DNA from: an uncultured Lactobacillus sp.
Lineage (GTDB): Bacteria > Bacillota > Bacilli > Lactobacillales > Lactobacillaceae
Assembly: GCA_946477855.1 (NCBI GenBank)
Contig: CAMKZU010000014.1
Coordinates: 1-44,432, forward strand
Length of the DNA: 44,432 nt
Reading direction: 5' to 3'
In this document: positions 23,174 to 43,596 of the stretch, one piece after another
Layout of the letters: every line of letters starts with the position of its first letter
Position numbering within the stretch: position 1 is the stretch's first letter
Program-made: the position numbers and the translations under genes
The notes under the pieces: model-generated
What the model saw: only the letters and a program-made list of their open reading frames with translations
What the model was told of the DNA's origin: nothing
Databases searched by the model: none

Positions 23174-23674
23174 ATGTCAAAAAAGAAAAACAAGATTGAA
23201 AAAACACTTGTTGAAAAAATATTGGATAGAAATAAGATCTCTTATCGACAAGCAGAATTTGCTACACATAAAGATTCAGGTGGTGTAGCAAAAATGGATA
23301 CATCTATTCTAAACGAGAATGAGCACTTGGTCTATAAAACTCTCGTTTGTTTGGGAAATAAAACGCCCACTTTAGTAGCTGTAGTACCAGTAACCGAACA
23401 TTTAAGCATGAAAAAACTAGCCAAAAATTCAGGTAATAAAAAATGTGAAATGTTACCTTTGAAAGATTTAGAAAAAACCACCGGTTATCTACATGGTGCA
23501 AATACACCCATTGGCATCTATTTTAAACATCATTTTCCCATTTTTCTTGATAATAGCATGATTAAAGAAAATGAAATTGCTGTTTCCAGTGGCAAAATCG
23601 GACGGAGTGTCTTTCTAAATCCTCAAGATTTGCAAAAAATTACACATGCAAAGTTTTGTGATTTACTGGAATAA
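23174..23674 (+). CDS. YbaK/EbsC-family Cys-tRNA(Pro)/aminoacyl-tRNA deacylase
   Basis: Single-domain editing deacylase of the YbaK/ProX superfamily, which hydrolyses mischarged tRNA-Pro in relatives. I set the start at the ATG at 23174 (MSKKKNKIEKTLVEKI, 166 aa). The in-frame GTG at 23165 is part of the AAAGGTGATC ribosome site. Conserved patches are LVCLGNKTPTLVAVVPV (about 55-72) and GYLHGANTPIGI (about 110-121). Function within the superfamily (Cys-tRNA-Pro versus other substrates) is not resolved. It is divergent from prmA. Confidence 0.87.
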   Translation: MSKKKNKIEKTLVEKILDRNKISYRQAEFATHKDSGGVAKMDTSILNENEHLVYKTLVCLGNKTPTLVAVVPVTEHLSMKKLAKNSGNKKCEMLPLKDLEKTTGYLHGANTPIGIYFKHHFPIFLDNSMIKENEIAVSSGKIGRSVFLNPQDLQKITHAKFCDLLE

Positions 23675-23735
23675 AAATAAAATTTTTCCTCTAAAAGTTG
23701 CTTAAGTTATAGTAGTATTAAAAAGTTTTTTCTAA

Positions 23736-23741
23736 TATAAT
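23736..23741 (+). promoter_or_regulatory. -10 element upstream of the citR-like gene
   Basis: TATAAT about 39 bp before the ATG at 23780, in a very AT-rich 105-bp intergenic stretch. The -35 is weak, as for a regulated promoter. Confidence 0.5.
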
Positions 23742-23779
23742 TAAAACAAATAAAAAGTATAAAGAATAGGAAAAAATAA

Positions 23780-24724
23780 ATGACATTGTTAACAGATGAA
23801 CAACTTGCGAATATTGCACACGACTATTTTTTGAGCAAGCTAAACATTGCAGAAATCTCGAAAAAGTATAATCTTTCCCGTTATCTTATAGCTAAGGCAA
23901 TAGAAGAAGCCGAAGATAAGGGAATAGTAAAAATTAGTATTTATCAAAGCCCTAAAAGAGCACAAAAACTAGAACGCGAATTCCAAAGGCTTTTCGGTTT
24001 AAAAGAGGTTTATATTTTAGAAGATAAAGAAACCAAAAACCAAGATAATGAAATGATTGTTAACTATGCAGCTAAACAAATACAGAATTATATTAATTCA
24101 GCTCATGTTGTCGGCTTAACTTGGGGAACTCTCATAAGAGATATTATTGATAATTTTTCAGCAGAAACACGTGATGATTTGACTTTTATACAATTGTTAG
24201 GCCAAGTGGTAAACGCAAGTAAACGTAAACAACCTCTAATTCAACATGCAGCTAATAAGTTCAGCGCAAAATGTCTCACTTTTCCTGCTCCTCTTTATGC
24301 GATTGATCCCACTTTAGTAAAAAAAGTTCATCAAGAACCATATTATGAATACATAGAAAAATATTTTTCACAGCTGGATCTGGTATTTGCAAGTATCGGA
24401 ACAGTGCAATCATTAGAATCCGGCCAGTTCTTTATGGATTATTATGCAGATAAACTATTTACTGGTCTTGAGAAAAACCAGTTAGCAGGAATTATTTTTG
24501 GTAGGCCTTATGATATTAAGGGACGCTTTTATAGTCCCATTGAGCCCCATATTTCTGGAATCAGTCTTTCCAATATTTTTGCAATTCCTAATCGCTTTGT
24601 AATTGTTAGGAACCGCTTTAAAGAAGACGCTCTTTTAGGAGCCTTAAGAACAGGAGTAATTACTCACTTGATCACTACTAGTGGAATAGCAGAAAGAGTT
24701 TTACATAAGAATGACACTCTTTAG
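23780..24724 (+). CDS. citR: SorC/DeoR-type transcriptional regulator of citrate genes (CitR/CitI-like)
   Basis: Sugar-binding-type (SorC family) regulator, 314 residues. An N-terminal helix-turn-helix covers about 20-48 (NIAEISKKYNLSRYLIAKAI), and a C-terminal effector domain of the NagB-like fold includes VVGLTWGTLIRDII near 112-125. CitI of Weissella/Leuconostoc, an activator of citrate genes, belongs to this family. The gene converges on citX with only two bases between stop codons. The assignment to citrate control rests on family plus position; the ligand is inferred to be citrate. Confidence 0.85.
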   Translation: MTLLTDEQLANIAHDYFLSKLNIAEISKKYNLSRYLIAKAIEEAEDKGIVKISIYQSPKRAQKLEREFQRLFGLKEVYILEDKETKNQDNEMIVNYAAKQIQNYINSAHVVGLTWGTLIRDIIDNFSAETRDDLTFIQLLGQVVNASKRKQPLIQHAANKFSAKCLTFPAPLYAIDPTLVKKVHQEPYYEYIEKYFSQLDLVFASIGTVQSLESGQFFMDYYADKLFTGLEKNQLAGIIFGRPYDIKGRFYSPIEPHISGISLSNIFAIPNRFVIVRNRFKEDALLGALRTGVITHLITTSGIAERVLHKNDTL

Positions 24725-24726
24725 TT

Positions 24727-25275
24727 TTAATCAGAGGATATCTCCTGCCTATACAAATTAGTGATATAATCTTGTAAATCTGTAACCGAATGTCTTCTTG
24801 AACGAGCACATTCTTTAGCAGGTCTTGAACATAAAAAACATCTGCGAACAGGCAAATCCAATTCTTTGCGGGATATAGCCTGTTTTTGTTTATCAATTAA
24901 AACATCAGCATCAAAAAGTCGATTTAATTTTTGATGCTCCTCAAATTCAACTGCTTTTTCCTTAACAACTCTGTAGTTACAATTGACAAGGTAAAAATTT
25001 TCGGGACCTGTTACTTTTTCCCAATGTTCATAAAGAATAAAAGGCAAATTACTGCTTTGAAAAATTTTTTCTAAATCAAAAATACCTTCGGCAAATATTT
25101 TTTCTAAATAACGATTGTTTTTAATAGGGCCTGGAATGTTCAATTTAACATCTAATAATGTAGTTTCTGGAAACTTTTGCAAGATTTCTTGTTGAAGTTT
25201 GACGCGTTCATCTTTATTTTGCAGTACCTCAGTTATACTCTGAGGCTGGCCTTCATTAAAAATTGATTTTATCAT
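24727..25275 (-). CDS. citX: Apo-citrate lyase phosphoribosyl-dephospho-CoA transferase
   Basis: Attaches the triphosphoribosyl-dephospho-CoA-derived arm to the citrate lyase carrier protein CitD. The 182 residues (start at ATG 25275; the GTG at 25287 is part of AGAGGTG) show the family motif PVRRCFLCSRPAKECARS near 145-163. It is a stand-alone CitX, not fused to CitG. The citG gene, needed to make the prosthetic group precursor, is not in this window and must be elsewhere. A hairpin separates it from citF, so its level may be lower. Confidence 0.93.
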   Translation of the reverse strand: MIKSIFNEGQPQSITEVLQNKDERVKLQQEILQKFPETTLLDVKLNIPGPIKNNRYLEKIFAEGIFDLEKIFQSSNLPFILYEHWEKVTGPENFYLVNCNYRVVKEKAVEFEEHQKLNRLFDADVLIDKQKQAISRKELDLPVRRCFLCSRPAKECARSRRHSVTDLQDYITNLYRQEISSD

Positions 25276-25296
25276 TCTGGTATTCACCTCTTTTTA

Positions 25297-25347
25297 TATT
25301 ATAACTAAAAAATGTGAGAACAAGTTCCAGCTCATTCTCACACTTTT
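25297..25347 (-). terminator. Terminator/attenuator between citF and citX, followed by a -10
   Basis: On the minus strand an 8-bp stem (TGTGAGAA with TTCTCACA, 14-nt loop) at 25312-25341 is followed by T residues (25306-25311). TATAAT at 25297-25302 then lies 22 bp before the citX ATG. The arrangement suggests partial termination after citF and possibly a separate weak citX promoter. Confidence 0.75.
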
Positions 25348-25362
25348 TTTAAAAATAATTAA

Positions 25363-26901
25363 TTAGTCTTTTACCTGCTTAATAGTATCAATAATTGTGC
25401 CATCTCGATACTGAATTAAAGCGACAGTGCGCTCAGTATATGCCAGTGGTTTTGGTATTCCAACTTGCTTTTGAGCCATTTCTTGAAGTTCCTTAATATC
25501 AACCACATTGAGTTCAGGAACTTTGGCAAAAGCATCTATGAGATCTTTACGGCGTGGATTAACTGCAATTCCTCTTTCAGTTACCAAAACATCTATTGAA
25601 TCGCCTGGAGTTACAACAGTTTCAACTGCCGGAACAACAGTAGCATTTCTTCCGCGTACTAATGGAGCAGTAATAATAGTCATTTTGGCTGCAGCCGCAT
25701 CTTGATGACCACCAATAGCGCCACGAATAACACCATCAGAACCAGTCATTACATTAACATTAAAGTCTGTGTCAATTTGTAAAGCCGAAAGAATAGCAAC
25801 ATCTAAATTATTAACTACTGCACCTTTATTGTGAGGATCGGCATACCATGAAGCATCAATCTCTTGCTGATTTTTATTCTTAGCCATTGAGGCCGCAGCA
25901 CCTTTATCAAAATCCTGCACATCCATAATTTTTTTGACCAAACCTTCTTCAAGTAGGTCGGTTGTAGGCTTGGTAATGCCACCAAGAGCAAATGAAGCTG
26001 TAATGCCATCTTTTAACATTGATTCTCTTAAATACCTGGTTACAGCAAGAGCAGCGCCACCAGATCCTGTCTGAAAAGAAAATCCTTGTTTATAATAAGG
26101 CGAATTAGTAATTACCTGATTAACGGTTTGCGCAATCTTCAGCTCTTTTGGATCTTTAGTAAAGCGAGTCGCTCCTGAACCAATTTTATCTGCATCACCT
26201 ATTTGATCAACCTTAACAACATAATCGACCTGAGTTTGTTTAATAGAAGCTGGAGTATTTGGGTAATCAACAATATTGTCTGTCAGCAAAACTACTTTAT
26301 CTGCATATTGAGAGTCAATTAATGCGTAACCTAAAGAACCGAATACAGCATCCCCTTCTTGACCATTAGCATTTCCTGCGGGATCAGAGTTAGGGACACC
26401 TAAAAAGGCAACATCAATCTTGATTTCTCCTTCTTCAATTGAGCGAGCCCGATTGCCGTGAGAACGGAAAATTACTGGATTCTTCAGTCCACCATGGGAA
26501 ACGAAATCGCCTAAGCTGCCTCTCATTCCAGATGAAGTAATATTGGTAATGACACCTTTTTTAATTGCTTCAATTACTGTGTCATTCATAACACCAGTCA
26601 AAGAAGAAGGAGCTAAAGTCAGGTTTTGGTAACCCATTTTAATAATTAAATCCATTACTTTGTTAAAAGCAAAATCGCCATTTCTAAAATGATGGTGAAA
26701 TGAAATAGTCATACCGTCTTTTAGTGTCTTTTTGATAACTTCCTCTAAAGAATCGACCACTTTTGATTCACCGGTGGTAACTTGCACCTTGGGTGCAACT
26801 CTCTTTACTTCAGGATTACCAACTACAACTGACTTAAATGGTTTTAGATTCATTTTAGTTATCAAATCATCCGGCAAATTGCGCTTTACTTTATTCTCCA
26901 A
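25363..26901 (-). CDS. citF: Citrate lyase alpha subunit (citrate:acetyl-ACP transferase)
   Basis: Exchanges acetyl-ACP for citryl-ACP, releasing acetate. I choose the TTG at 26901 as start ([20 protein letters not shown], 512 aa): AGGAGGG lies eight bases upstream, whereas an upstream ATG at about 26919 falls in front of that ribosome site. The gene overlaps citE by 11 bp. The protein has the CoA-transferase fold with [16 protein letters not shown] and [13 protein letters not shown]. Its length matches CitF of other bacteria. Confidence 0.96.
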
Positions 26902-27805
26902 TGTAATTACCCTCCTCATCAATTAAATTAGAAGCTTTTGCTGTTTCAATAACGCGATCAGCTTTTTCAACTACAGGTTTGTCAACCATCTTGCCGTTCA
27001 TCGAAATTACTCCAGACCCCTTTGCCTTTGCTTCTTGAATTGCATTTTGCACAGCAAGTGCATTTTCAATTTCGTCTTTAGTAGGGTTGAATACTTTATT
27101 AACCATTGGAATTTGCCGTGGATTGACCAAAGACTTGCCATCATATCCCAGTTCATAAATATATTTTGTTTCGCGGTAAAACCCTTCGGTGTCATTCATA
27201 TTAGAAAAAACAGTATCAAAGGCATAAACGTCTGCAGCTCTAGCAGCTTGTAAAACCATGTTGCGAGCAAATTCAAGTTCACGTCCATCTGGGTAACGAT
27301 GGGTGTGCATATCAGCAGTATAATCTTCACCTGAAACTGCCAAGCCCATCATCAAAGGCGTTGCAGTAGCAATTTCCGGTGCATTAAGAACGCCTTTAGC
27401 ACTTTCAATCGCAGCCATTACGCCAATAGAGCCTTTTTCAACGCCATATTCTTCTTCTGCCTTTTCCATATCTGCTACTAATTTTTTAATCATTGCAGCT
27501 GATTCAGTTTTTGGCAGACGAATAACATCGACTCCTGCTCGCACCATTGCTTTTACATCTTCGTCATAAAAAGGCGTATCTTGACCATTAATTCTGACAA
27601 CTACTTCTGCACCACCGAAATCAACTGTTTTAATAGCATTAAATACTAACATTCTTGCTGCATCTTTTTCAGTTAGAGATACTGCATCTTCCAAATCCAA
27701 CATAATAGAGTCGGCACCATAGATACCGGCATCCTTAACCATAGCTGGATTATTTCCCGGCACAAACATCATAGTTCGACGCAAACGATTTTTTACGTAA
27801 GTCAT
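26891..27805 (-). CDS. citE: Citrate lyase beta subunit (citryl-ACP lyase)
   Basis: Cleaves citryl-ACP to oxaloacetate and acetyl-ACP. The 304 residues form the CitE TIM barrel with [14 protein letters not shown] at the N-terminus, the Mg-site motif LDLEDAVS near 36-43 and [10 protein letters not shown] near 128. GGAGG precedes the ATG. It directly follows citD with no gap and overlaps citF. The short form without an N-terminal extension is usual for the citrate lyase complex. Confidence 0.97.
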
Positions 27806-28102
27806 TTATTGTAGTACCTCCAATCTTGGTTTATCTGTGGTTTCGGTTGCTCTTTGAGCCGCAGCTAATGTACGTGCAGCAATCACACAGTCAAGGGCAC
27901 CTTTATCAGTAGCCTTAACTTTCGCATTTTCAATTCCGAATTTTTTAAGAGTATCAGTTATTACTTTTTTGATCTGATCTCCGTAAGATTTGGCTACTTC
28001 GGATTCCAAGTCAATTTCAATACCATTTTGACCAGCCGATACCATTATTTGAATATCTGAAGATTCTAAAGTTCCTGCCACTCCAACAGTCTTAATTTCC
28101 AT
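27806..28102 (-). CDS. citD: Citrate lyase gamma subunit (acyl carrier protein)
   Basis: Small carrier (98 aa) that holds the acetyl/citryl thioester on a phosphoribosyl-dephospho-CoA arm. The attachment serine is S14 in GTLESSDIQ (10-18), matching the known Ser14 of Klebsiella CitD. The start overlaps the citC stop by 11 bp and its stop touches citE, so citC-D-E-F are translationally coupled. Confidence 0.97.
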   Translation of the reverse strand: MEIKTVGVAGTLESSDIQIMVSAGQNGIEIDLESEVAKSYGDQIKKVITDTLKKFGIENAKVKATDKGALDCVIAARTLAAAQRATETTDKPRLEVLQ

Positions 28103-29147
28103 TGATGTTCATTCCTTTCTTTATTCTTTCTTGTAAAATTTGATAGTTTTTATTAATAAAATCAAAAGTAGTTGTCGGGACTAAATTTGAAATGTCTTTT
28201 AAATTATTACTTTTAATCAATTGACGGACACGTGTAGCTGTAATTATTTGATCGTTATTGCAAAAGCGCTTAACAATTTCAACGTCAATTTTGGGACTAA
28301 GTGTGTTTTTTAAGCTTTGATTATAGAAATTAGTTGTTCTTGAAAATGGTTCAGTACCCAAATAACGTTTTTTTATTGCCAGTTTCGGTGCAATAGTATT
28401 TTTAAAAATTAACGCATCAATCTCCGTTTGCGTGGCGATCAGTTCATCAGGTGATTTTAAAAAGTATGCCGGAAAAGTTGATTGAGAAACTAGATAATCC
28501 CCACCGCTAATTACTAACACGTTTGGGTATTCAGAAGTTCCTTTTTTTACCAGTTCCATTCTTTCACTCGTTTTAAATAATGAAGCATCCGTAGCAACAA
28601 CAAACACATATACCAGATCATTCTCGCTACTAGCAAGTTTTACCAAGGCCTGATGACCTAAAGTAAACGGATTAGCATTCATGACAATTGCAGCAACTTT
28701 TTTATGATTTTGGTCTTCTATTCTGGGAATTTTGGCTAAAAAGTCTTGAATATTTGGTGTACCACTCTCTAAAAAAGCAGCCTCATCAGTATGAGCCAGT
28801 TCCTTAAAATTTAAATGAGAAAAACTGGCAGAATATTTTGCTTTAGTAAATACAAATGAATGATAAATTTTTTGACTAAAAAGGTATTCCTCTAGAGCTG
28901 AAACTATCTGATTAAATCTTGCTCCCTGAACAGATGCATCATTTGAAACAGCGATATATTTGAGAACATTTCCAGCAATGCTACCTGTGCCAACTAATTG
29001 ACCATCTTCATCAATTAGACCCACAGTATGATCAATCACAGCAACTTCACGAGAGCTAAAATTGTTAATTCCTTGGCTGATTAGAAATTTTTGCCACCTT
29101 TTTTTGGTTTCCGGCAATGTTAAAAAAAGTTCTACGGTTTTATCCAT
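28092..29147 (-). CDS. citC: [Citrate (pro-3S)-lyase] ligase
   Basis: Activates citrate lyase by acetylating the carrier thiol with acetate and ATP. The 351 residues have an N-terminal GNAT-like domain (VAVIDHTVGLIDEDGQLVG) and a nucleotidyltransferase domain with NANPFTLGH near 159-167 and a C-terminal signature ITATRVRQLIKS. AAAGGTGAG precedes the ATG. It lies 21 bp after the alpha/beta hydrolase gene. Confidence 0.95.
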   Translation of the reverse strand: MDKTVELFLTLPETKKRWQKFLISQGINNFSSREVAVIDHTVGLIDEDGQLVGTGSIAGNVLKYIAVSNDASVQGARFNQIVSALEEYLFSQKIYHSFVFTKAKYSASFSHLNFKELAHTDEAAFLESGTPNIQDFLAKIPRIEDQNHKKVAAIVMNANPFTLGHQALVKLASSENDLVYVFVVATDASLFKTSERMELVKKGTSEYPNVLVISGGDYLVSQSTFPAYFLKSPDELIATQTEIDALIFKNTIAPKLAIKKRYLGTEPFSRTTNFYNQSLKNTLSPKIDVEIVKRFCNNDQIITATRVRQLIKSNNLKDISNLVPTTTFDFINKNYQILQERIKKGMNINGN

Positions 29148-29168
29148 TTATCCGATTCTCACCTTTTG

Positions 29169-29963
29169 TTAAATCCTTTTTAAAAAGTTCATAACTTCTT
29201 TATACATGCTTAAAGGCTGCTCAGCCTGAATTAAGTGTCCACAATTTTTAATAATTTTTGCGCTAATCATTTGATTCAACTTTTCCATGGCAAAGGCAAA
29301 ATGATAATCAAAAAAAGGAGAATTCTGTCCTGCTAAAACCAGCATTGGAACTTTTAAATCAATTAAAACATCTCGCCAATCTTGCATTGCGTGTTCAATG
29401 CGACAAAGATAATTTTCTTCAGCAAAATAGCGAAATTTTTCAGACTCTGCTTTTGCCTTTTTAAACATCTCATCATTAATATGAGCATAAATGCCATTGC
29501 CAAGATCCGCCTTTAAATAATCCGGGTAATTCTGCCAAGTTAAATCTTTAAAACCATACTCCCAAGAGCTATCTCGAATCATCTTGGGAGGCTGATCCAA
29601 ATCGATAATTGCCTGTAGTCTGTTATAGCCAAACAATGAAACATAAGCCCAAATATTTGCAGCACCCATTGAATTTCCGATAGCAATAATATTTTTCAAG
29701 TTTAACTTGGTAATCAGTTCTTCTAAATCAGCCGCATGACGACTGATACGCTGTCCTTTAAATGTTCTCTGTGAGCGACCCTGATTACGCGGATCTATTA
29801 CAATAAAACGATAATCAGATGCAAAAAGTTTGGCAACTTCTTCCCATAATATTGCGGTGCTTCCTATACCGGGAACTGCCAATATAGGTTGTTTGCTTTC
29901 TTCAGTATCATAATATGCTATTCGTATCCCATCATTAGTGATTAAATTTTTCTCTTCAAGCAT
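29169..29963 (-). CDS. Alpha/beta hydrolase embedded in the citrate operon
   Basis: Alpha/beta-hydrolase fold protein, 264 residues, with no signal peptide. The nucleophile elbow is GNSMGA near 96-101, the oxyanion region contains PGIGSTA, a likely acid is in LAGQNSPFFD near 225, and the catalytic His lies in NCGHLIQAEQP near 250. Its start codon touches the transporter stop (TAAATG), so it is an integral operon member. It is not a standard citrate lyase component; it could act on a citrate ester or thioester or detoxify a by-product. The substrate is unknown. Confidence 0.82.
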   Translation of the reverse strand: MLEEKNLITNDGIRIAYYDTEESKQPILAVPGIGSTAILWEEVAKLFASDYRFIVIDPRNQGRSQRTFKGQRISRHAADLEELITKLNLKNIIAIGNSMGAANIWAYVSLFGYNRLQAIIDLDQPPKMIRDSSWEYGFKDLTWQNYPDYLKADLGNGIYAHINDEMFKKAKAESEKFRYFAEENYLCRIEHAMQDWRDVLIDLKVPMLVLAGQNSPFFDYHFAFAMEKLNQMISAKIIKNCGHLIQAEQPLSMYKEVMNFLKRI

Positions 29964-31430
29964 TTACCAGATTCCAATAATTTTCATCCAGAAAGTTCCA
30001 ATTACACCAAAAATCAGTAAATAGATAATTCCTAAGATAAAGTTGTATTTCCACCATTCACCTTGTTTAATGTAACCTGTCGTAGCTAAAATTGAAGCTG
30101 GTCCATTGGCATAGTGAGTAGTTGAAGCATTGAAAGCTCCTGTAAATGCAAGCAGCATTGCTGAAAGTCCCAAAGGAGCACCAGTAGCTACTGCCACTGA
30201 CAAGAATGGCAAATATAAGGCAGTCATATGAGCGGTTCCACTAGCAAAGAAGTAATGAGTATAAAACATTAATATTACCAAAACCACTAATACTATTTGC
30301 CAGCTGATACCGTGAAGACTTGTTTGAATGGTCTTTGAGAACCAGTCAATAAAGCCAAATGAAATAAGTTTACTTGCCATAAAAATTAAAATCGACAGCC
30401 AAATCAAAATATTCCAGGCACCAGTTTGGTTCAAGGCATCTTTCATGGTTAAAACACCAGTTAACAGCAACAAGCCAACTGCTAGAAAGGCAACAAAAGT
30501 TGAATCTAATTGAGGAATCTCAAAAACGCCAGATAAAACCCATAAAATTATCGCTAGCAAAAATACCATTGACATAATTTTTTCAGGTTTTGTAACTGGT
30601 CCCATCTCCTTTAAATGATCAGTGGCCCATTTTTCAGCATTAGGTGTTTCTTTTATCTCTGGTGGAAAAATTTTATAAATTACAAGAGGAATTACAATAG
30701 TTGCAACAAGAACAGGAACGACTGCGGCTGAAAACCAACTAATCCAGGTCATGTTATAATTCTTCTGTGCTGCCATTTGTGAAGCAACCATGTTAGGTGC
30801 TGCGCCAGTAATAAAGAGGGCAGTTGAAAGAATATTGGCATGAAAAGCCATAAAGCTGAGATAGGCACCAATTTTCTTTCTGGAAGGGTCATTAGGGTAT
30901 GAATCATAATCTTTAGATATTGATTCGGTTACGGGCCAAACGACTCCTCCAGTTCTGGCACTGTTTGAAGGAATTAGAGCTCCTAGAACTAATTCCAATC
31001 CAGTAATGGCATAACCAATACCAATGGATTTCTTGCCGAAACGTTTAATCATCCAATAAGCTATACGATTGCCCAGTCCCGTTTTACTAATACCATAGGC
31101 CATGATGAAAGCCATAGCAATCAGCCAAGAAGCTGAATTGCTAAAGGCACTAAGAATTCCAGTTGTTACTTTCCCTGTTTTAGGATCAACAATGTCCTTG
31201 ATTGGGGCTAAGCCAACTAAAACCGTTACTATTAGTCCGATTAAAGTGGTGCCACCTATTGGCAAAGGTTTCGTGATACACCCAACAATAGTTGCTACAA
31301 AAATAGCAAACATTTCCCAGGCAGGAGCAGATAAGCCTGCAGGACGCAAAGGCGTGATGCACCAAAGTATAACACCAACAGCCAGAGGCAAAATAAATCC
31401 CTTGTAATTAACTTTCTCTAGTGTTTTCAT
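29964..31430 (-). CDS. DASS-family di/tricarboxylate transporter (CitT/TtdT-like)
   Basis: Membrane carrier, 488 residues with about 12-14 hydrophobic segments. Signature motifs are IPSNSARTGGV near 152-162 and the second-half THYANGPASILATTGY near 440-455, the latter like E. coli CitT, a citrate/succinate antiporter. Position between the RraA-like gene and citC makes citrate the likely substrate. If it exchanges citrate for succinate, it would close the pathway encoded around it without spending energy on uptake. That exchange mode is inference. Confidence 0.88.
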   Translation of the reverse strand: MKTLEKVNYKGFILPLAVGVILWCITPLRPAGLSAPAWEMFAIFVATIVGCITKPLPIGGTTLIGLIVTVLVGLAPIKDIVDPKTGKVTTGILSAFSNSASWLIAMAFIMAYGISKTGLGNRIAYWMIKRFGKKSIGIGYAITGLELVLGALIPSNSARTGGVVWPVTESISKDYDSYPNDPSRKKIGAYLSFMAFHANILSTALFITGAAPNMVASQMAAQKNYNMTWISWFSAAVVPVLVATIVIPLVIYKIFPPEIKETPNAEKWATDHLKEMGPVTKPEKIMSMVFLLAIILWVLSGVFEIPQLDSTFVAFLAVGLLLLTGVLTMKDALNQTGAWNILIWLSILIFMASKLISFGFIDWFSKTIQTSLHGISWQIVLVVLVILMFYTHYFFASGTAHMTALYLPFLSVAVATGAPLGLSAMLLAFTGAFNASTTHYANGPASILATTGYIKQGEWWKYNFILGIIYLLIFGVIGTFWMKIIGIW

Positions 31431-31435
31431 TTTAA

Positions 31436-32146
31436 TTACCTGTAATTTTCCGGGCGATAAATATCGTCGATAATTTCATAATTTTTATTCTTTAGTTCTT
31501 CATCAAGCCAATTTATATTTCCTGTGCCATCATGAAAACTGGCCGCTTTTGCATCATCTTTTTTATGAAAATCCTGAACAACTGGAAGCAATTCACTTGC
31601 TTCTTCTAAAGCAATCTTAATAACACCATCGGCATCACCTAAAATTACGTCACCAGGATTAACACTTACATTCCCACAAGAAATTGGGACATTTATTTCT
31701 CCCGGACCCTCTTTATATGGTCCGTCAGGTGTTGTACTAACTGCGTATATGGGCAAGTCCCAATTACGCAAACTATCAATGTCACGTATTGGTCCGTCAA
31801 CTACGACTCCGGCAACATGTCTTTGGTCGCGCAGCCAGGTCATCATCACTTCGCCAATAACAGCCCTGGTATTGTCATTTTCATTATCAATGACAACGAT
31901 ATCGCCTTCATGACAATATTTTAACGCTGCATAAATAGTCAAATTATCACCTGGACGGTTATGAACTGTAAAAGCTGGTCCACACATTTCCTCATGAGGC
32001 TTGGACATAAGCTTAATTCTTGGTGCCATTGCACCTGTTCTATTCATACAATCAGCCACGTTTGATGAGGGCAACTTTCTGTACGCAGCAATTACTTCTT
32101 TTTGCGGAAGGTTTCTTTTTAAAAAAATCCTTTTTCCAACCTGCAT
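31436..32146 (-). CDS. RraA-like aldolase/oxaloacetate decarboxylase family protein
   Basis: Member of the RraA/HMG-CHA aldolase fold, 236 residues. The metal and substrate motif has G98-E99, then D117-G-x-x-R121-D122 (VVVDGPIRDID), as in pyruvate-releasing class II aldolases, which also decarboxylate oxaloacetate. No biotin-dependent oxaloacetate decarboxylase or malic enzyme is present in this cluster. I therefore infer that it could convert oxaloacetate to pyruvate. Splitting a citrate-like hydroxy acid is the alternative. It is coupled to mdh (20 bp) and the transporter (5 bp). Confidence 0.8.
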   Translation of the reverse strand: MQVGKRIFLKRNLPQKEVIAAYRKLPSSNVADCMNRTGAMAPRIKLMSKPHEEMCGPAFTVHNRPGDNLTIYAALKYCHEGDIVVIDNENDNTRAVIGEVMMTWLRDQRHVAGVVVDGPIRDIDSLRNWDLPIYAVSTTPDGPYKEGPGEINVPISCGNVSVNPGDVILGDADGVIKIALEEASELLPVVQDFHKKDDAKAASFHDGTGNINWLDEELKNKNYEIIDDIYRPENYR

Positions 32147-32166
32147 TCGTCATGCCTTCTTTTTGG

Positions 32167-33096
32167 TTAATCTAAAGCAATATTATCTAGTACTTCCTGC
32201 ATTTTGGAAGCTGAGTTTAGCATCTTAGCTTTTTCAGTTTTAGAAAGCTCAGTTTCAAGCACCTGACTAATTCCCGCACCATTTACGACAGCTGGAGTTC
32301 CTAGATAAAGCTCATTTTTAATTCCATATTCACCCTTAATTGGTGCTGATAAAGGCAAGGCGATTGATCGATTAGTTAATATTGCAGTAACAATTTGAGT
32401 TAACATCATCGCAATGCCATAAAATGTAGCTCCTTTATTTTCAATTATTTTTCCTCCTTTTTTACGAACACCTGATTCTAATTGATCCAGCACAGAGTTG
32501 TCAATACCGGCAAAATCTTTAAGTGGCTTGCCACTAACTGTTGACTCATCAAAGTTTTCGAAAGAAGTATCACCATGCTCTCCTAAAACCATAGAATTAA
32601 CTTCAGCAACAGGAACATGTAATCTTCTTGCCAAATCAACTTTCAAGCGAGCTGAATCAAGAGAAGTTCCCGTTCCGATAACCTTATTTTTAGGGAAACC
32701 AGATAGTTTCTGGGTCAGCGTTGTTAAAATATCAACGGGATTAGCAGAAACGAGAAAAATACCGTTAAAGCCTGATTCAACTACAGGTTGAATTATGCTT
32801 TTTAAGATATTTACGTTTTTATTAACCAGATCCAAACGGCTTTCTCCCGGCTTACGCGGAACACCAGCGGTGATCACAACAACGTCAGCATCTTTTGCAT
32901 CAGAGTATTCTCCAGAATGAATATTACATTCTCCTGTAAATGGCAGTATGTCTTCTAAATCCATTGAATCACCCAATGGGCGCTTTTTCACCACATCGCA
33001 AATAACCAGTTCGTCAACTCTGGTATGTTGTAATAAATCATTGGCAAAAGTTGAACCTACTGCTCCATCACCAACTAGTAAAACCTTTTTATTCAT
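32167..33096 (-). CDS. mdh: NAD-dependent malate dehydrogenase (LDH/MDH superfamily)
   Basis: LDH-like fold, 309 residues from the ATG at 33096; the in-frame TTG at 33114 overlaps the AAAGGA site. The glycine-rich loop GDGAVGS (9-15) and acidic D34 at the end of strand 2 fit NAD. The specificity position is Arg: GVPRKPGESR has R81 where lactate dehydrogenases have Gln, which marks oxaloacetate/malate. R87, the SARL arginine and GEHGD with the catalytic His are present. It is the first gene of the mdh-rraA-like-transporter-hydrolase-citCDEFX operon and would reduce citrate-derived oxaloacetate. Confidence 0.88.
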   Translation of the reverse strand: MNKKVLLVGDGAVGSTFANDLLQHTRVDELVICDVVKKRPLGDSMDLEDILPFTGECNIHSGEYSDAKDADVVVITAGVPRKPGESRLDLVNKNVNILKSIIQPVVESGFNGIFLVSANPVDILTTLTQKLSGFPKNKVIGTGTSLDSARLKVDLARRLHVPVAEVNSMVLGEHGDTSFENFDESTVSGKPLKDFAGIDNSVLDQLESGVRKKGGKIIENKGATFYGIAMMLTQIVTAILTNRSIALPLSAPIKGEYGIKNELYLGTPAVVNGAGISQVLETELSKTEKAKMLNSASKMQEVLDNIALD

Positions 33097-33125
33097 AACG
33101 TCATTTCCTTTCAAATTTTTAAAAA

Positions 33126-33139
33126 TGTAATCCTTTACA
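33126..33139 (-). promoter_or_regulatory. Putative cre (CcpA) site before mdh
   Basis: TGTAATCCTTTACA is a perfect 5+5 dyad around four bases and matches the cre consensus TGWAANCGNTNWCA except for one central base. It sits just downstream of a TATAAT, 30 bp before mdh, a position where CcpA would block transcription. Confidence 0.65.
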
Positions 33140-33145
33140 TAAATA

Positions 33146-33174
33146 ATTATAAAATTTATCCTAGCATTTTTCGA
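33146..33174 (-). promoter_or_regulatory. Promoter of the mdh-cit operon
   Basis: Minus-strand -10 TATAAT at 33146-33151 and a -35-like TCGAAA at 33169-33174 with 17 bp spacing. The weak -35 and the AT-rich palindromes upstream (AATTTAAATT at 33189-33198, AAAATGATTTT at 33217-33227) fit activation by a SorC-type regulator. Confidence 0.6.
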
Positions 33175-33244
33175 TATTTAAAATAAATAATTTAAATTTT
33201 AATTTTTTAAAAATATAAAATGATTTTCATCTTTTAAATAATAC

Positions 33245-33275
33245 AAAAAATGCTTAGAATTTCTAAGCATTTTAA
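33245..33275 (-). terminator. Terminator after frdA
   Basis: A 13-bp inverted repeat AAAATGCTTAGAA/TTCTAAGCATTTT followed by T residues on the minus strand. It separates fumC-frdA from the mdh-cit operon. Confidence 0.88.
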
Positions 33276-33279
33276 ATAA

Positions 33280-34677
33280 TTATTTAAATTGTCTTGTGTA
33301 TTCTGTCATCTGTATACCGGCCTGCCTGCCAAACACCACTGTTTCAGCAATCGAGTTTCCACCAATTCTATTATTACCATGTAATCCTCCTGAAACTTCG
33401 CCAGCAGCATAGAGACCTGGAATAACGTTTCCATCAGAGTCCAAAACTTCAGTTTTTGGAGTTATATGAATTCCACCCATAGTATAATGAATTGCCGGAT
33501 TAATATGAATAGCAAAGAAAGGACCTTGCTTGATAGTGCGATCCATTCCAGTAGTCCGCTGAAATTCGCTATCATTTTTGCCTTTCACAGCTTCATTCCA
33601 TTTTGCAATTGTTTTCTTTAGATTATCACTGTTAACGCCAATATTTGCTGCTAATTCATCAATGGAAGAGCCTTGACTGACTAATCCTACATGATCATAA
33701 AATTCGACAGCAGTGAAATTATTACGGATCGTTTGATCAAACAGAAGGTAAGCACCATCCTCATTTAATTTAGTGATGGCATCGGAAACGATTTTTCGAG
33801 TATCAAGCTCGTTAACAAATCTTTGTCCAGATTTATTAACTAAAATTGCTCCTTCGCCACGTAAACCTTCACCTATTAAATAAACGTGATCAGTGTCTGT
33901 CTGTGCTGTGGGGTGAACCTGAATAAATTCCATTTGCTCTAATTGAGCATCTATCTCAGCAGCTAACATTAAACCATCACCTGTAGCTCCAGGTTGATTA
34001 GTTGTTTTATAATTCGCTAGGTCTGGACGGTATTTTTGTATTAAATCTTTTGAAGAACCAAAGCCACCTGAGGCTAGTAAAGTAGCCGTCGCTTGAACCT
34101 TTTTAGTTCCTGAATCAGTTTCAACTTCAATTCCTACAACCCTTTTATCGTTATCTTGTAATAATTTAATTACACGAGAATTATTAAAAACAGGAATATT
34201 TTTTTCCTGAATTTGCTTTAAAGCTCCTGTTACTAAATAACTGCCAACCGGTGCCATTGAGGCAGGACGGTGAGCCCTCTTCTTACTCATACCACCAGTT
34301 ATTGTCAAATTTGTTAACTCGATGCCATGATTCATTAACCAGTCAATCGCCACTGCTGAGTGGTCGACAAAATATCTCAAAAGGTCGCGGTCATTTAGTC
34401 TGCCCCCACCTTTTAAAGTTTCCTGGTAAAAATCTTCTTTGTTATCTATAATCCCTTCATTAAGCTGTACCAGGCTTTCAGAAGCATTCATCCCAGATGA
34501 GGCTCTGTTAGTATTTCCACCAAGATCAGCATTTTTTTCAAAAACGGCAACATTCAAGCCTAGTTCTTTTGCTTGAATTGCGGCCGTTAAACCGGCTCCA
34601 CCGGCTCCAACGATTACTGCATCATAATGGTCTTTAATTTCTGCACTGCCGTTAGGACTAAAAACAAATTTACCCAT
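33280..34677 (-). CDS. frdA: Soluble flavoprotein fumarate reductase (FAD_binding_2)
   Basis: Reduces fumarate to succinate. The 465 residues comprise only the FAD/capping core: FAD motif VIVGAGGAGLTAA (21-33), H255 (QVHPTA), R273 (GLRGEG), H397 (HYTMGG) and R437 (NNRIGG), the residues that bind fumarate and donate protons in this family. There is no signal peptide, heme domain or FMN_bind domain, so it is cytoplasmic and takes electrons from an unidentified donor. AGAGGAG precedes the ATG. It is 26 bp after fumC and ends at a terminator. Confidence 0.92.
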   Translation of the reverse strand: MGKFVFSPNGSAEIKDHYDAVIVGAGGAGLTAAIQAKELGLNVAVFEKNADLGGNTNRASSGMNASESLVQLNEGIIDNKEDFYQETLKGGGRLNDRDLLRYFVDHSAVAIDWLMNHGIELTNLTITGGMSKKRAHRPASMAPVGSYLVTGALKQIQEKNIPVFNNSRVIKLLQDNDKRVVGIEVETDSGTKKVQATATLLASGGFGSSKDLIQKYRPDLANYKTTNQPGATGDGLMLAAEIDAQLEQMEFIQVHPTAQTDTDHVYLIGEGLRGEGAILVNKSGQRFVNELDTRKIVSDAITKLNEDGAYLLFDQTIRNNFTAVEFYDHVGLVSQGSSIDELAANIGVNSDNLKKTIAKWNEAVKGKNDSEFQRTTGMDRTIKQGPFFAIHINPAIHYTMGGIHITPKTEVLDSDGNVIPGLYAAGEVSGGLHGNNRIGGNSIAETVVFGRQAGIQMTEYTRQFK

Positions 34678-34703
34678 TTTTTTCTCCTCTAAATTTTAAA
34701 AAA

Positions 34704-36107
34704 TTATTTTTCAGGATTAGTTTGAGATACATTGGTCATCGCCATATAATCCATCCACTTATCATATTCCTCTTCTGTTAATTTACCACTTTTAAGCGCT
34801 GCTTCCTTAAGAGTGGTTCCTTCCTTATCTGCAGTTTGGGCAATTTTTGCAGCTGCATGATAACCAATGTGTGGTGACAGAGCTGTAACAGTCATCAAAG
34901 AGCTTTCAAGCAAGTCATCCATCTTTTCCGCATTAACAGTTAAACCAGCAATCATTTTATCAGCAAACCCTGTAATAGTACCAGTTAAAATATCACAAGA
35001 ATCTAGAAAAGCTGTAATCATGACAGTTTTATAGACATTCATTTCAAAATTTCCTTGTGAACACGCAAAAGTAATAGTGGTGTCATTGCCAAAAACTTTT
35101 GCGGCTGCCATGGTTACTGCTTCAGCTTGCGTGGGGTTAACTTTACCAGGCATAATTGACGACCCGGGTTCATTAGCTGGTATATTAAGCTCGTGATAGC
35201 CCGCTCTCGGTCCAGAAGCCAAAAACCTGATGTCTTGAGCAATTTTAAACATATCAGCAGCTAAAGTTTTTAAAGCACCATGAACAACATCTAAACCGGA
35301 ATGATGAGCCAGACCCCAGAACTTATTGGTATTAACTTTAAATTCGTGTCCATATACTCGAGACAATTTACCGGCAATTTTCGCAGTCATTCCAGGTGCG
35401 GCGTTAAGTCCGGTGCCAACAGCTGTTCCTCCTATTGCTAATTCATACAATGTTGGTTTAAGTTCTTGAATATAATTTAAGTCATGTTTTAATGCAGAAA
35501 TATAACCCGAAACTTCCTGGCCAAAAGTAATAGGTGTAGCATCTTGCAAGTGAGTACGGCCTACCTTGACAGTTTTCCAATATTTATTTTGTTTGTTTTT
35601 AAGTTCATCAATAAGATGTTGGACAGCCGGTTCAAGTTTATCAAGTGCTTCTACAGCCACAATATTCATGGCAGTAGGATAAGTATCATTTGAAGACTGT
35701 CCCCGATTGACATCATCATTTGGTAAAACGTTTAAACCTGGATGAAGTTTATTAGCTAAATTAGCAACGACTTCATTGACGTTCATATTACTTTGGGTTC
35801 CTGATCCTGTTTGCAAGACATGAAGCGGAAAATCCTTACGAAGCTCGCTATCATTTAATTTTAACAACTGGTCAATAGCTTCTTCAATTGCCGCACCTTT
35901 ATCAGCTGTTTCATCCCCCACTTCGACATTTGACTCAGCAGCAGCTTTCTTCAAATGCAAAAATGCTCGGATAATTGCAAGAGGCATTAATTCGCCGCTA
36001 GGGAAATTATTGCGACTGCGTTCAGTTTGGGGTCCCCAGAGAGCTTCTTTTGGTATTTTGACAGGGCCAATAGTATCACTTTCAACACGGTATTCTTTTT
36101 TGCTCAT
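34704..36107 (-). CDS. fumC: Class II fumarate hydratase
   Basis: Interconverts malate and fumarate without an iron-sulfur cluster. The 467 residues contain the superfamily signature GSSIMPGKVNPTQ near 318-330 and TGSGTQSNMNVNEV near 98-111, typical of fumarase C rather than aspartase. AAGGAG precedes the ATG. It is the first gene of fumC-frdA. With Mdh and FrdA it completes the reductive branch oxaloacetate-malate-fumarate-succinate. Confidence 0.95.
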   Translation of the reverse strand: MSKKEYRVESDTIGPVKIPKEALWGPQTERSRNNFPSGELMPLAIIRAFLHLKKAAAESNVEVGDETADKGAAIEEAIDQLLKLNDSELRKDFPLHVLQTGSGTQSNMNVNEVVANLANKLHPGLNVLPNDDVNRGQSSNDTYPTAMNIVAVEALDKLEPAVQHLIDELKNKQNKYWKTVKVGRTHLQDATPITFGQEVSGYISALKHDLNYIQELKPTLYELAIGGTAVGTGLNAAPGMTAKIAGKLSRVYGHEFKVNTNKFWGLAHHSGLDVVHGALKTLAADMFKIAQDIRFLASGPRAGYHELNIPANEPGSSIMPGKVNPTQAEAVTMAAAKVFGNDTTITFACSQGNFEMNVYKTVMITAFLDSCDILTGTITGFADKMIAGLTVNAEKMDDLLESSLMTVTALSPHIGYHAAAKIAQTADKEGTTLKEAALKSGKLTEEEYDKWMDYMAMTNVSQTNPEK

Positions 36108-36171
36108 GTTCAGTCTCCTTATTTAATGCTGACATTTTACTAATAATAAATTTTATATTACTCTTTCACTC

Positions 36172-36200
36172 ATAATACAGGTTTTTTATGCTTTTTTCAA
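36172..36200 (-). promoter_or_regulatory. Promoter of fumC-frdA
   Basis: Minus-strand -35 TTGAAA (36195-36200), 17 bp spacer, -10 TATTAT (36172-36177). No cre-like dyad is seen here, unlike before mdh. Confidence 0.8.
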
Positions 36201-36255
36201 TATTTTTAAATAAAAGGGCTATCAATTCAAAAATTTAAAATTTGTTTAAAAATAC

Positions 36256-36281
36256 AAAAAGCACTCCTAATGAGTGCTTAG
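36256..36281 (-). terminator. Terminator after the copper ATPase gene
   Basis: Stem AAGCACTC/GAGTGCTT with a short loop (ATTAG) and a T run on the minus strand, 10 bp beyond the stop. Confidence 0.9.
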
Positions 36282-36290
36282 TCCAGACTG

Positions 36291-38330
36291 TTATATTTTT
36301 AAGGTTTCTGCATTAATTGCCACTATTACTGTTGATAAGGACATCAAAATTGCTCCAACGGCTGGGGATAACAAAATTCCCCAAGGAGCTAATACTCCAG
36401 CTGCTAACGGCAATGCAACTATATTGTAGCCGGCTCCCCACCATAAATTTTGAACGGTTTTTCTTTGAGTATGCTGGGCCAATTTTAAAAAACTAATGAT
36501 ATCTAAAGGTTCACTATTTACCAAAATAACATCAGCAGAATCTACGGCAACATCTGTTCCAGCTCCAATAGCAACTCCAATGTCGGCCTTGGCTAAACTA
36601 GGTGCATCGTTAATGCCATCGCCGACCATCATCACCTTATTACCTTGATTTTGCAAAGTAGTTACGATTTTTTGCTTATCGGCCGGCATTAGACCAGAAT
36701 GCACTTCTGTAATACCTAACTTCTGCGCAATGTTTTGCGCTACCTTTTCGTTATCACCAGTCAACATTACCGGAGTAATGTTGAGAGCCTTAATCTGCTT
36801 AATTAACGATGCCGCATTCTTTTTGATTTCATCACCAACGGCAACATAGCCCAAAAGTTCATGGCCTTTAATCAAGTAACTCGAAGTATAATTCAGGGAT
36901 TCTACCTGAGGAAAGTTTTTAACTATTTCTCTTGCAGTTTTTTCGTTTACTAATTGATATTCTTCTCCGTTTATTATTCCTGAAACGCCCTTTCCGGCCA
37001 AAGTATTACTGTCAGATAAAGCATATAAATCAATCTTCTTTTCCTTAGTAAATTGTAAAATGCTTTGTGCAATCGGATGATTGGAATCCTGTTCTAAAGA
37101 AGCAATTAGTTTAATAACTTCATCCGCATTGTAGGATTTACTTAAAGTATTATACTTGCGCACCTGAAACTTCCCTTGCGTTAAAGTTCCAGTCTTATCT
37201 AAAAGCAAATAATTGATTTTGGAACTAATGCTAATAACATTACGATTTCTAATTAGTAAGCCATTTTTGGCACCAATTGATGTGCTCTTAGCGTTCACTA
37301 AAGGAATAGCTAAACCCAGAGCATGAGGGCAAGCTATTACTAACACAGTTACCATTCGTTCGAGACCACCTGCTATACCACGTAAACTTGTCCAAATCAG
37401 AAAAGCAATAATACCAAAAATTAGCGCGGCATAAAACAACCAACTGGAAACCCGATCTGCCAAATTTTGTAGTTTAGACTTATTCATCTGAGATGACTGA
37501 ACTAGTTTATTGACACTGGCTAAAAAGCCTGAATTAGCTGAATTAGTAACCTTAACTGTTAGTGTTCCAGAGCCGTTAATTGAACCCCCTATAACCTTAT
37601 CGTTTTTTTGCCGCGTTACTTCACGCGATTCACCAGTAACCAAAGATTCATTCACCTGACTGGAACCATTTATAATGACCCCATCAAGAGGAATACTTTC
37701 TCCTGCTTTGACTAAAATTACTGCATCTTTTTGGACATCGTTTATTGCCATGTCCATAGTTTGACCATTATGTTGTACGTGGACCTTATCGGGTAAAAGT
37801 TTAGCCAAGTCATGCACTGAACTATTGGCATTCATTACTGAGTTCATCTCAATCAGATGACCTAATAACATAATTAAAATTAAAGTAGCTAATTCCCAAA
37901 AGAAATCCATGACATGAACTTTGCTGTTTAAAAAATCATTTTTAATAAAAGCATATAAACTATAAATATATGCTGTAGTAATGCCTAAAGAAATTAGTGT
38001 CATCATTTCAGGCTTTTTAGCCTTAATTTCATAATAAGCACCAGACAAAAATGGTTGGCCACCGTAAAAGTAGAGAATTGTAGCAAAAAGTGCAACTATC
38101 CATTCTGAACCGGAAAAAGAAAATTGAAATGGTAAATGTACACCCATTGCTGGTGATAAAAATATGATTGGCAAGGATAAAACGACTGATACCCAAAACT
38201 TTTTCTTCAGGTTGCCCATATGCATCATGTGACCGCCATGCATCATCATATCCTGACCACCCATATTCATTGAGTGATTCATATTTCCACTATGATTCAT
38301 GTTCATATTATCCAAATTACTCAGTCCCAT
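36291..38330 (-). CDS. copB: CopB-type copper-exporting P1B ATPase
   Basis: Metal-transporting P-type ATPase, 679 residues. The first 40 residues are a Met/His-rich tail (MNHSMNMGGQDMMMHGGHMM) instead of a CxxC domain. The membrane motif is CPH (VIACPHALGLA), diagnostic of the CopB subgroup. DKTGTLT is the phosphorylation site, with NHPIAQSI and GDGINDAPSLAKADIGVAIG in the nucleotide and hinge domains. About eight membrane segments. No CopY operator (TACAnnTGTA) is seen upstream and no copY/copZ is adjacent. The start codon has a poor ribosome site, so it may lie a few codons downstream. Confidence 0.93.
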   Translation of the reverse strand: MGLSNLDNMNMNHSGNMNHSMNMGGQDMMMHGGHMMHMGNLKKKFWVSVVLSLPIIFLSPAMGVHLPFQFSFSGSEWIVALFATILYFYGGQPFLSGAYYEIKAKKPEMMTLISLGITTAYIYSLYAFIKNDFLNSKVHVMDFFWELATLILIMLLGHLIEMNSVMNANSSVHDLAKLLPDKVHVQHNGQTMDMAINDVQKDAVILVKAGESIPLDGVIINGSSQVNESLVTGESREVTRQKNDKVIGGSINGSGTLTVKVTNSANSGFLASVNKLVQSSQMNKSKLQNLADRVSSWLFYAALIFGIIAFLIWTSLRGIAGGLERMVTVLVIACPHALGLAIPLVNAKSTSIGAKNGLLIRNRNVISISSKINYLLLDKTGTLTQGKFQVRKYNTLSKSYNADEVIKLIASLEQDSNHPIAQSILQFTKEKKIDLYALSDSNTLAGKGVSGIINGEEYQLVNEKTAREIVKNFPQVESLNYTSSYLIKGHELLGYVAVGDEIKKNAASLIKQIKALNITPVMLTGDNEKVAQNIAQKLGITEVHSGLMPADKQKIVTTLQNQGNKVMMVGDGINDAPSLAKADIGVAIGAGTDVAVDSADVILVNSEPLDIISFLKLAQHTQRKTVQNLWWGAGYNIVALPLAAGVLAPWGILLSPAVGAILMSLSTVIVAINAETLKI

Positions 38331-43592: not shown

Positions 43593-43596
43593 TTCT

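Follow-up and report, generated by a model that had tools for sequence, protein, structure and literature searches.

How does a bacterium that carries citrate lyase dispose of the oxaloacetate that the enzyme releases? This question is raised by a stretch of 44,432 nucleotides from an uncultured Lactobacillus sp. (contig CAMKZU010000014.1, positions 1–44,432, hereafter called the window), in which citrate lyase genes adjoin genes of reductive malate metabolism. Within Lactobacillus, the host falls close to the Firm-5 species of the bee gut, and Lactobacillus kimbladii is the nearest to the window. An earlier note had interpreted the locus as a citrate-to-succinate module. That interpretation is plausible with respect to the citrate lyase, the reductive malate–fumarate–succinate genes, and the C4-exchanger-type transporter, but it is incomplete, having missed a branch through an RraA-like protein. 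We favor, with somewhat better than even confidence, a citrate co-fermentation locus from which oxaloacetate would exit both to succinate and, via RraA, to pyruvate.

Gene content and organization of the locus

The nine genes originally named, citX, citF, citE, citD, citC, a transporter gene, an LDH-like mdh, frdA, and fumC, are all intact open reading frames on the minus strand between positions 24727 and 36107. Their family matches are, respectively, CitX, CitF, CitE, CitD, CitC, a DASS transporter, Ldh_1, flavocytochrome-c/FrdA, and a class II fumarase-type lyase. The citrate lyase genes comprise citX (holo-ACP synthase, 24727–25287; TIGR03124, 174 bits, cut-off 105), citF (alpha subunit, 25363–26922; TIGR01584, 783 bits, cut-off 501), citE (beta subunit, 26891–27805; PF03328, with TIGR01588 at 441.3 bits, just below its cut-off of 443.4), citD (acyl carrier protein, 27806–28102; TIGR01608, 125 bits, cut-off 63.5), and citC (citrate lyase ligase, 28092–29147; TIGR00124, 308 bits, cut-off 262). 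Together they form the single operon-like run of citD, citE, citF, citC, and citX that characterizes a citrate fermentation cluster, with CitE 2 bits short of its curated threshold. The prosthetic group gene citG is not part of the cluster but occurs as a single copy at another place in the genome (G000:C24:3638-4417). Citrate would be cleaved to acetate and oxaloacetate by CitDEF, matured by CitC, CitX, and the unlinked CitG.

The proposed arrangement in two adjacent units is supported by a terminator-like hairpin behind frdA (33273–33247, minus strand), which has a 12-pair stem and a T-rich tail. Terminator-like sites numbered 15 across positions 23600–36400, compared with 8.3 ± 2.8 in shuffled sequences. 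A promoter-like site at 33174–33146 provides no evidence by itself, as 42 such sites were found and 41.9 were expected.

Three genes had been passed over: an RraA-like gene, an alpha/beta hydrolase gene, and a regulator gene convergent with citX. The regulator (23780–24724, plus strand; PF04198, 165 bits) is of the SorC/DeoR type and appears CitI-like; the activator of other lactic acid bacterial cit clusters is the SorC-family protein CitI, according to the accessible part of a review (PMC10798043). For comparison, 120 cit loci were assembled, namely the window and 119 others; citF was found in 172 of 397 genomes, so they represent a subset only. Locus clustering was by single linkage at 30% identity, with L001–L031 (short) and L140 omitted. 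A homologue of the regulator was present in 98 of the 120 loci. The alpha/beta hydrolase (29169–29963, minus strand; PF00561) was also common (82/120), always on the same strand as citF (82/82), and its residues S98, D123, and H243 were each conserved in 82/82. One idea is that it might act as a citrate lyase deacetylase, a role on which nothing was found among the literature matches listed. Among 17 named Lactobacillus loci, 14 retained all twelve genes from fumC through the regulator.

A LaINDY-type transporter

The transporter gene (29964–31430, minus strand) encodes a DASS-E exchanger that aligns to 6wtw at 885 bits, gapless across 488 residues. It is a close full-length homologue of LaINDY of L. 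acidophilus and shares all four named exchanger-site residues, E146, R159, H392, and H401; Arg159 together with His392/His401 at the sodium sites distinguishes exchangers of this type. The protein is probably an orthologue of LaINDY, a solved succinate exchanger, and its residues predict an exchange of C4 acids. Succinate would leave through it against an incoming carboxylate. In the possible citrate/succinate exchange suggested earlier, the C4 acid is what the LaINDY-type residues lead one to expect, and citrate would be a putative substrate; the accessible part of the LaINDY literature reports no citrate transport.

The reductive branch

The LDH-like gene (32167–33099, minus strand; PF00056/PF02866; translation could also begin at a TTG at 33114) encodes the malate-type arginine already recognized in the earlier note. 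All 41 LDH-like proteins from the examined cit loci, including that of the window, have arginine at position 102 (LDH numbering). NCBIfam names the window's enzyme L-lactate dehydrogenase; we consider it a putative LDH-like malate dehydrogenase. The description "LDH-derived" was dropped: in a midpoint-rooted tree, for which two of 25 LDH places (L235 and L256) gave no row, four Q102 lactate dehydrogenases nest within the R102 rows on long branches, and the direction of change is not fixed. Ldh_2, a type-2 malate/lactate dehydrogenase, was encoded in three cit loci of the genus (L032, L035, and L037). It was ruled out as a full substitute for the LDH-like enzyme, because a separate contig of genomes G392 and G351 still encodes an R102 enzyme.

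The fumC gene (34704–36107, minus strand; PF10415) is of the class II fumarase type. Its best model is fumC_II, at 587 bits, which is below the curated cut-off of 665, with scores exceeding those of aspartase models. The frdA gene (33280–34677, minus strand) encodes a soluble fumarate-reductase-type flavoprotein (PRK06481, 613 bits, cut-off 542; 1d4c, E 2.8e-106) in which no haem or FMN domain was found, Pfam giving FAD_binding_2 and no FMN_bind. Equivalents of six of seven active-site residues (H365, E378, R381, R402, H504, and R544, in Shewanella numbering) were present in 29/29 FrdA proteins, and the T377 place held glycine in 29/29; H365 to R402 were mapped by counting on the 1d4c alignment, and H504 and R544 by motif only. 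The glycine and the missing FMN and haem domains count against the succinate route. Through these enzymes, oxaloacetate would be reduced to succinate via LDH-like malate dehydrogenase, FumC, and soluble FrdA, taking up two electron pairs; for this route we infer the direction of the dehydrogenase and the substrate and electron donor of FrdA.

It is common for cit loci to include reductive genes, which are also known from Lactiplantibacillus plantarum. frdA was found in 29 of the 120 loci, and the LDH-like mdh accompanied it in 25 of these 29 and accompanied fum in 29 of 34 fum loci; the order fumC–frdA–mdh was conserved in 14/17 named loci. The layout had been thought distinctive for carrying reductive genes where other clusters carry decarboxylases. 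This distinction did not survive comparison across loci, since malic enzyme was also present in 20/29 frdA-bearing loci. Additionally, a malolactic enzyme is encoded elsewhere in the window's genome (the sole PF03949 place; 967 bits, cut-off 850) and could divert malate to lactate, against the succinate route.

An RraA-like protein as a candidate oxaloacetate decarboxylase

Between mdh and the transporter gene lies a gene (31436–32146, minus strand; PF03737) for a protein of RraA-like fold, a predicted soluble metal-dependent oxaloacetate decarboxylase. Aldolases of the RraA/HMG-CHA-aldolase family decarboxylate oxaloacetate. The window's protein shares with the HMG/CHA aldolase of Pseudomonas putida F1 (3NOJ) the fold, the catalytic arginine, the metal-binding aspartate, and the PGDN motif, and differs in having E for D102, Y for H75, and a one-residue insertion, with 25% identity by structural alignment. 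R121 and D122, corresponding to catalytic Arg-123 and metal Asp-124 of the aldolase, did not vary among 16 sequences of the genus, nor across the 14 rows of an alignment that leaves out L228, L230, and L231. In all 14 rows the place of Asp-102 of the tested aldolase, part of the D-X20-R-D motif, held Glu, a conservative change; the extra residue in the window's protein falls ahead of the RD motif and gives a spacing of 21. The protein scored below curated aldolase cut-offs (ligK_PcmE, 115 vs 304.5 bits; PRK09262, 130 vs 179 bits) and belongs to subfamily PRK06201, labelled "hypothetical protein", for which we found no reported enzymatic activity. Judged by its residues and position, it probably decarboxylates oxaloacetate to pyruvate.

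The absence of a decarboxylating enzyme supposed in the earlier account is probably wrong. Neither a malic-enzyme (CitM/mae) nor a biotin-dependent (Oad) decarboxylase was found in the window's cluster; the RraA-like gene occupies the slot that these enzymes hold in other loci, and because it stands in their place, oxaloacetate is probably split two ways. The second exit would yield pyruvate and CO2 by the RraA-like enzyme, where other Lactobacillaceae have malic enzyme or biotin decarboxylase. Across the 120 loci, 91 carried malic enzyme (its cluster assigned from one scanned member), six carried biotin-decarboxylase genes (recognized by eye, by their sequences and gene set; oadA and oadB in 5/6), and nine carried RraA, all within the genus; the three kinds did not overlap. 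This is not a general rule, because Enterococcus faecalis has both citM and oad, as stated in the part of the review available (PMC10798043). A third type of decarboxylase in cit loci is the probable new element here.

All oxaloacetate might instead go to succinate, with RraA no decarboxylase in vivo, an explanation we regard as unlikely but the strongest of the rivals. The complete mdh, fumC, and frdA set is consistent with it, as is the self-decarboxylation of oxaloacetate with divalent metals described in the accessible part of the same review (PMC10798043). Moreover, genus loci L036 and L039 have mdh and fum with a PepC-type peptidase gene, not RraA, between mdh and the transporter gene, so that cit loci without any decarboxylase gene do exist. 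However, RraA was found in 9/12 genus cit loci and is tightly coupled to the transporter gene, lying directly upstream of it in 9/9 RraA loci (gap 6–23 bases) and immediately following mdh in 6/9. Among 61 genus genomes, it was present in 31/41 with citF (in two of which, G397 and G432, citF is seen only as fragments where contigs end) and absent from 20/20 without citF (Fisher 5e-9, uncorrected for kinship); its catalytic residues, moreover, are conserved. It is not required, because ten of the 41 citF-bearing genomes lack it. The PYC/OadA domain PF02436 of biotin decarboxylase and pyruvate carboxylase was found in 0/61 of these genomes, including the window's (67% complete). A CitM-type malic enzyme elsewhere in the 31 RraA genomes was also considered and rejected: PF03949 matches, where present, lie in frames of 541–573 aa, the malolactic length, the window genome's copy alone being classified by model. 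A 402 aa PF03949 frame occurs in G397, a genome without RraA.

A second and slightly less probable explanation, also unlikely, is that RraA acts on another 2-oxo diacid, by aldol cleavage or by decarboxylating the product of an imported hydroxy-diacid, in a cluster that handles several diacids including citrate. Eight RraA-bearing plasmid records, among 20 listed of 1032 matching, point this way: in six, RraA has a gene for a hydroxyacid or Ldh-family dehydrogenase no more than two genes away, and in three, all Pantoea, a DASS gene is its immediate neighbor. In the Pantoea stretches shown, the neighbors of RraA are DASS and hydroxyacid dehydrogenase genes and there are no cit genes, so RraA may serve the transporter's substrate instead. 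Ldh_2 in the three genus loci fits the same explanation. Against it, RraA within the genus accompanies citrate lyase, and a further genus copy (L220) lies directly ahead of citD and citE. Of 395 Lactobacillales genomes, 20 contained an RraA relative; 16 of these 20 belonged to other genera, and 11 of the 16 had citF. RraA beside cit genes was sought there and rejected, RraA and citF lying on different contigs or far apart in 10/11. The remaining case, G534, has both within 6 kb and was discounted: its RraA stands in a row of ORFs that by eye resemble amidohydrolase and TRAP-transporter genes, citC is on the opposite strand, and the E99 place is D. Weak RraA relatives were present in three non-genus genomes of the family sample, of which G003 lacks citF and G370 and G389 have it on other contigs.

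Finally, a reversed malate dehydrogenase, with malate imported by exchange and converted to oxaloacetate and then by RraA to pyruvate, and frdA and fumC as a separate fumarate-reducing unit, is very improbable. In its favor, malate binds and stabilizes LaINDY (PMC7553777, as accessible), all four Firm-5 species consume malate (PMC8456714, as accessible), and the hairpin separates frdA from mdh, but the conserved fumC–frdA–mdh order and the co-occurrence of mdh with fum and frdA argue against it, and malate oxidation is thermodynamically unfavorable at fermentative NADH levels.

Relation to known citrate clusters and to bee-gut Firm-5

Returning to two exits for oxaloacetate, the accessible part of the review (PMC10798043) describes mae/citM clusters of the Weissella, Lactococcus diacetylactis, and Oenococcus type, which share with the window citC, citD, citE, citF, citX, a SorC-type regulator, and a soluble single-gene decarboxylase; the window has an RraA-type protein in place of the malic-enzyme-family decarboxylase, and its citG is unlinked. 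The oadABDH clusters of Enterococcus faecalis and Lacticaseibacillus casei likewise combine citrate lyase with a dedicated oxaloacetate decarboxylase (PMC10798043, same part), whereas the window's cluster has no biotin-decarboxylase genes. L. plantarum has fumC and frd among its cit genes and mdh in its genome, and a reductive citrate-to-succinate route has been proposed or reported for it in the accessible parts of PMC4604094 and PMC10798043; strain 80, as far as these sources extend, has mae where the window has RraA. No link between RraA and citrate clusters was found in the open PMC literature among the matches listed, nor is "RraA" mentioned in the available part of the review. That PRK06201 RraA-like proteins form a third class of oxaloacetate decarboxylase in bacterial citrate fermentation, unrelated to the other two, and have replaced malic enzyme across much of Lactobacillus, giving bee-gut symbionts both pyruvate and succinate as outlets for oxaloacetate, is a proposal that we hold in even balance. 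It assigns an enzymatic role that can be tested to an RraA subfamily so far uncharacterized. If RraA is the decarboxylase, annotation seeking only mae or oad wrongly takes these species to be purely reductive.

The Firm-5 citrate operon of Brochet et al. 2021 (PMC8456714) is the same kind of locus, and strains of L. kullabergensis and L. helsingborgensis share the window's gene order. The words succinate, fumarate, and RraA do not occur in the main text of that paper. In its accessible part, citrate lyase genes were raised with pollen in these two species, and all four Firm-5 species consumed citrate along with malate. The locus offers a concrete genetic basis for Firm-5 citrate use and for succinate output in mono-colonized bees, among which succinate appeared exclusively with Firm-5 (PMC5726620, as accessible). 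Firm-5 is not the sole succinate source, because succinate also rises in bees with Gilliamella and S. alvi (PMC11343714, as accessible).

Gene content and conservation of the cluster

In the direction of transcription, the cluster comprises fumC, frdA, a terminator-like hairpin (33273-33247), mdh, an rraA-like gene (31436-32146, minus strand), a DASS transporter gene (29964..31430, minus strand), an alpha/beta hydrolase gene, citC, citD, citE, citF and citX. The nine genes listed in an earlier note proved to be real, intact and on one strand, with families assigned by Pfam and NCBIfam; that inventory had overlooked the RraA-like gene, the hydrolase and a SorC-type regulator gene, which lies behind citX and is convergent with the cluster. 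citG is located outside the cluster, elsewhere in the same assembly (1.34 Mb, 67% complete). Thirteen window genes used as queries showed 96–100% identity to L. kimbladii Dan47, a species that is likewise a bee isolate. Of 17 named Lactobacillus loci, 14 retain the 12 genes from fumC to the regulator in order, including those of L. kullabergensis, L. helsingborgensis, L. melliventris, L. apis, L. bombicola, L. huangpiensis, L. laiwuensis and L. acetotolerans; of the other three, L217 is truncated by its contig end, and L219 and L220 deviate. L. apis, L. helsingborgensis, L. melliventris and L. kullabergensis are the honey-bee Firm-5 species named in the available part of PMC8456714.

An RraA-type candidate oxaloacetate decarboxylase

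The cluster belongs to a known kind, and its new, testable point is a predicted RraA-type decarboxylase. Across 120 cit loci (119 fetched plus the window), malic enzyme was present in 91, biotin-dependent decarboxylase genes in 6, RraA in 9 and none of these in 14, and two kinds never occurred together (0/120); in this count, the malic-enzyme cluster was named via one scanned member and biotin-decarboxylase genes were identified by eye. All nine RraA loci fall within Lactobacillus, where they represent nine of 12 cit loci, and in all nine the RraA gene immediately precedes the transporter gene; in six it immediately follows mdh. Among 61 genus genomes, RraA was found in 31 of 41 with citF versus 0 of 20 lacking it (28/34 versus 0/15 in the 49 better genomes), although Fisher values for this association overstate the case because the species are related. 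A PYC/OadA domain was found in none of the 61. Counting against a decarboxylase role, RraA is missing from 10 of the 41 citF-positive genomes, and in Pantoea RraA is found together with a DASS gene and a hydroxyacid dehydrogenase, in a stretch that, as far as viewed, has no cit genes. Furthermore, the Lactobacillales genomes searched yielded no cit operon including RraA outside the genus, and E. faecalis combines two decarboxylase kinds (PMC10798043, available excerpt). The proposal that this layout lacks a decarboxylating enzyme, made with the RraA-like gene overlooked, is probably wrong.

Several loci vary in this region. In L220 (Lactobacillus sp. ESL0701), an extra RraA copy immediately precedes citD and citE, close to a contig end. 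Between mdh and the transporter gene, L036, L039 and L040 carry a PepC-type peptidase gene, which is in two pieces in L039; L036 and L039 have no RraA alongside it. L036 also has an IS1182-type transposase in this interval and frdA in two pieces.

The predicted reductive branch

The citrate-to-succinate pathway proposed in the earlier note captures half of the likely picture and falls short as a whole account. Arg or Gln at position 102 (LDH numbering) decides malate or lactate specificity. The window's LDH-like enzyme, labeled L-lactate dehydrogenase by NCBIfam, carries Arg where lactate dehydrogenases carry Gln, as do all 41 LDH-like enzymes from cit loci. A tree was built from 64 rows, of which 41 came from cit loci and 23 from ten genomes. 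Its four Q102 lactate dehydrogenases form a single, fully supported group, placed as drawn inside the R102 rows. In G407, G410, G098 and the window's own, incomplete genome, the Ldh_1-family places comprised the R102 enzyme plus distant relatives, and none was a Q102 lactate dehydrogenase. A type-2 (Ldh_2) malate/lactate dehydrogenase gene occurs in three genus cit loci (L032, L035 and L037).

FrdA matches fumarate reductases of the flavocytochrome c type. All 29 cit-locus copies keep six of the seven active-site residues, and the position of T377 (Shewanella numbering) is Gly in every one. A domain scan of the window FrdA found no haem or FMN domain. Six FMN_bind places are present in the genome, including one at the end of the window and a pair inside one ORF. 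Besides the one at the window's end, two FMN_bind places lie in neighbouring open reading frames, 611 and 626 aa long (G000:C2:12988-17512), which are possibly flavin-based reductases and could bear on the FrdA donor. At 42177-44432, a second DASS transporter gene follows the tail of a fumarate-reductase-like ORF that bears FMN_bind and is truncated at the contig end. The window fumarase fits fumC_II best, with a score below the model threshold. The reductive branch is not rare in cit loci: mdh occurs in 41 of the 120, fum in 34 and frdA in 29, of which 20 also contain malic enzyme. A known precedent is L. plantarum (PMC4604094, PMC10798043, in the parts available).

Transport and bee-gut physiology

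The window DASS protein matches LaINDY closely over its full length (885 bits) and has, at identical numbers, the residues that the accessible text of PMC7553777 names for the exchanger's sodium-site equivalents. That text describes LaINDY exchanging succinate for succinate or alpha-ketoglutarate and binding malate, and contains no citrate assay. Given this exchange and the matching residues, the prediction that succinate would leave through the LaINDY-like protein is well founded; we infer that citrate may be the counter-substrate.

According to the available portions of the bee-gut studies, pollen raises citrate lyase gene expression in L. kullabergensis and L. helsingborgensis, and each of the four Firm-5 species uses up both citrate and malate (PMC8456714). 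In mono-colonised bees, succinate was made only with Firm-5, and several gut community members use citrate (PMC5726620). The bee itself secretes citrate into the gut, Firm-5 is one of the groups with which TCA-linked acids are depleted, and a rise in succinate is also seen with Gilliamella plus S. alvi (PMC11343714). These portions hold no tie between bee-gut succinate and the window's locus.

Homologues of the alpha/beta hydrolase (29169-29963) occur in 82 of the 120 cit loci; their genes share the strand of citF in every case, and Ser98, Asp123 and His243 are invariant. One idea is that the hydrolase acts as a thioesterase deacetylating citrate lyase.
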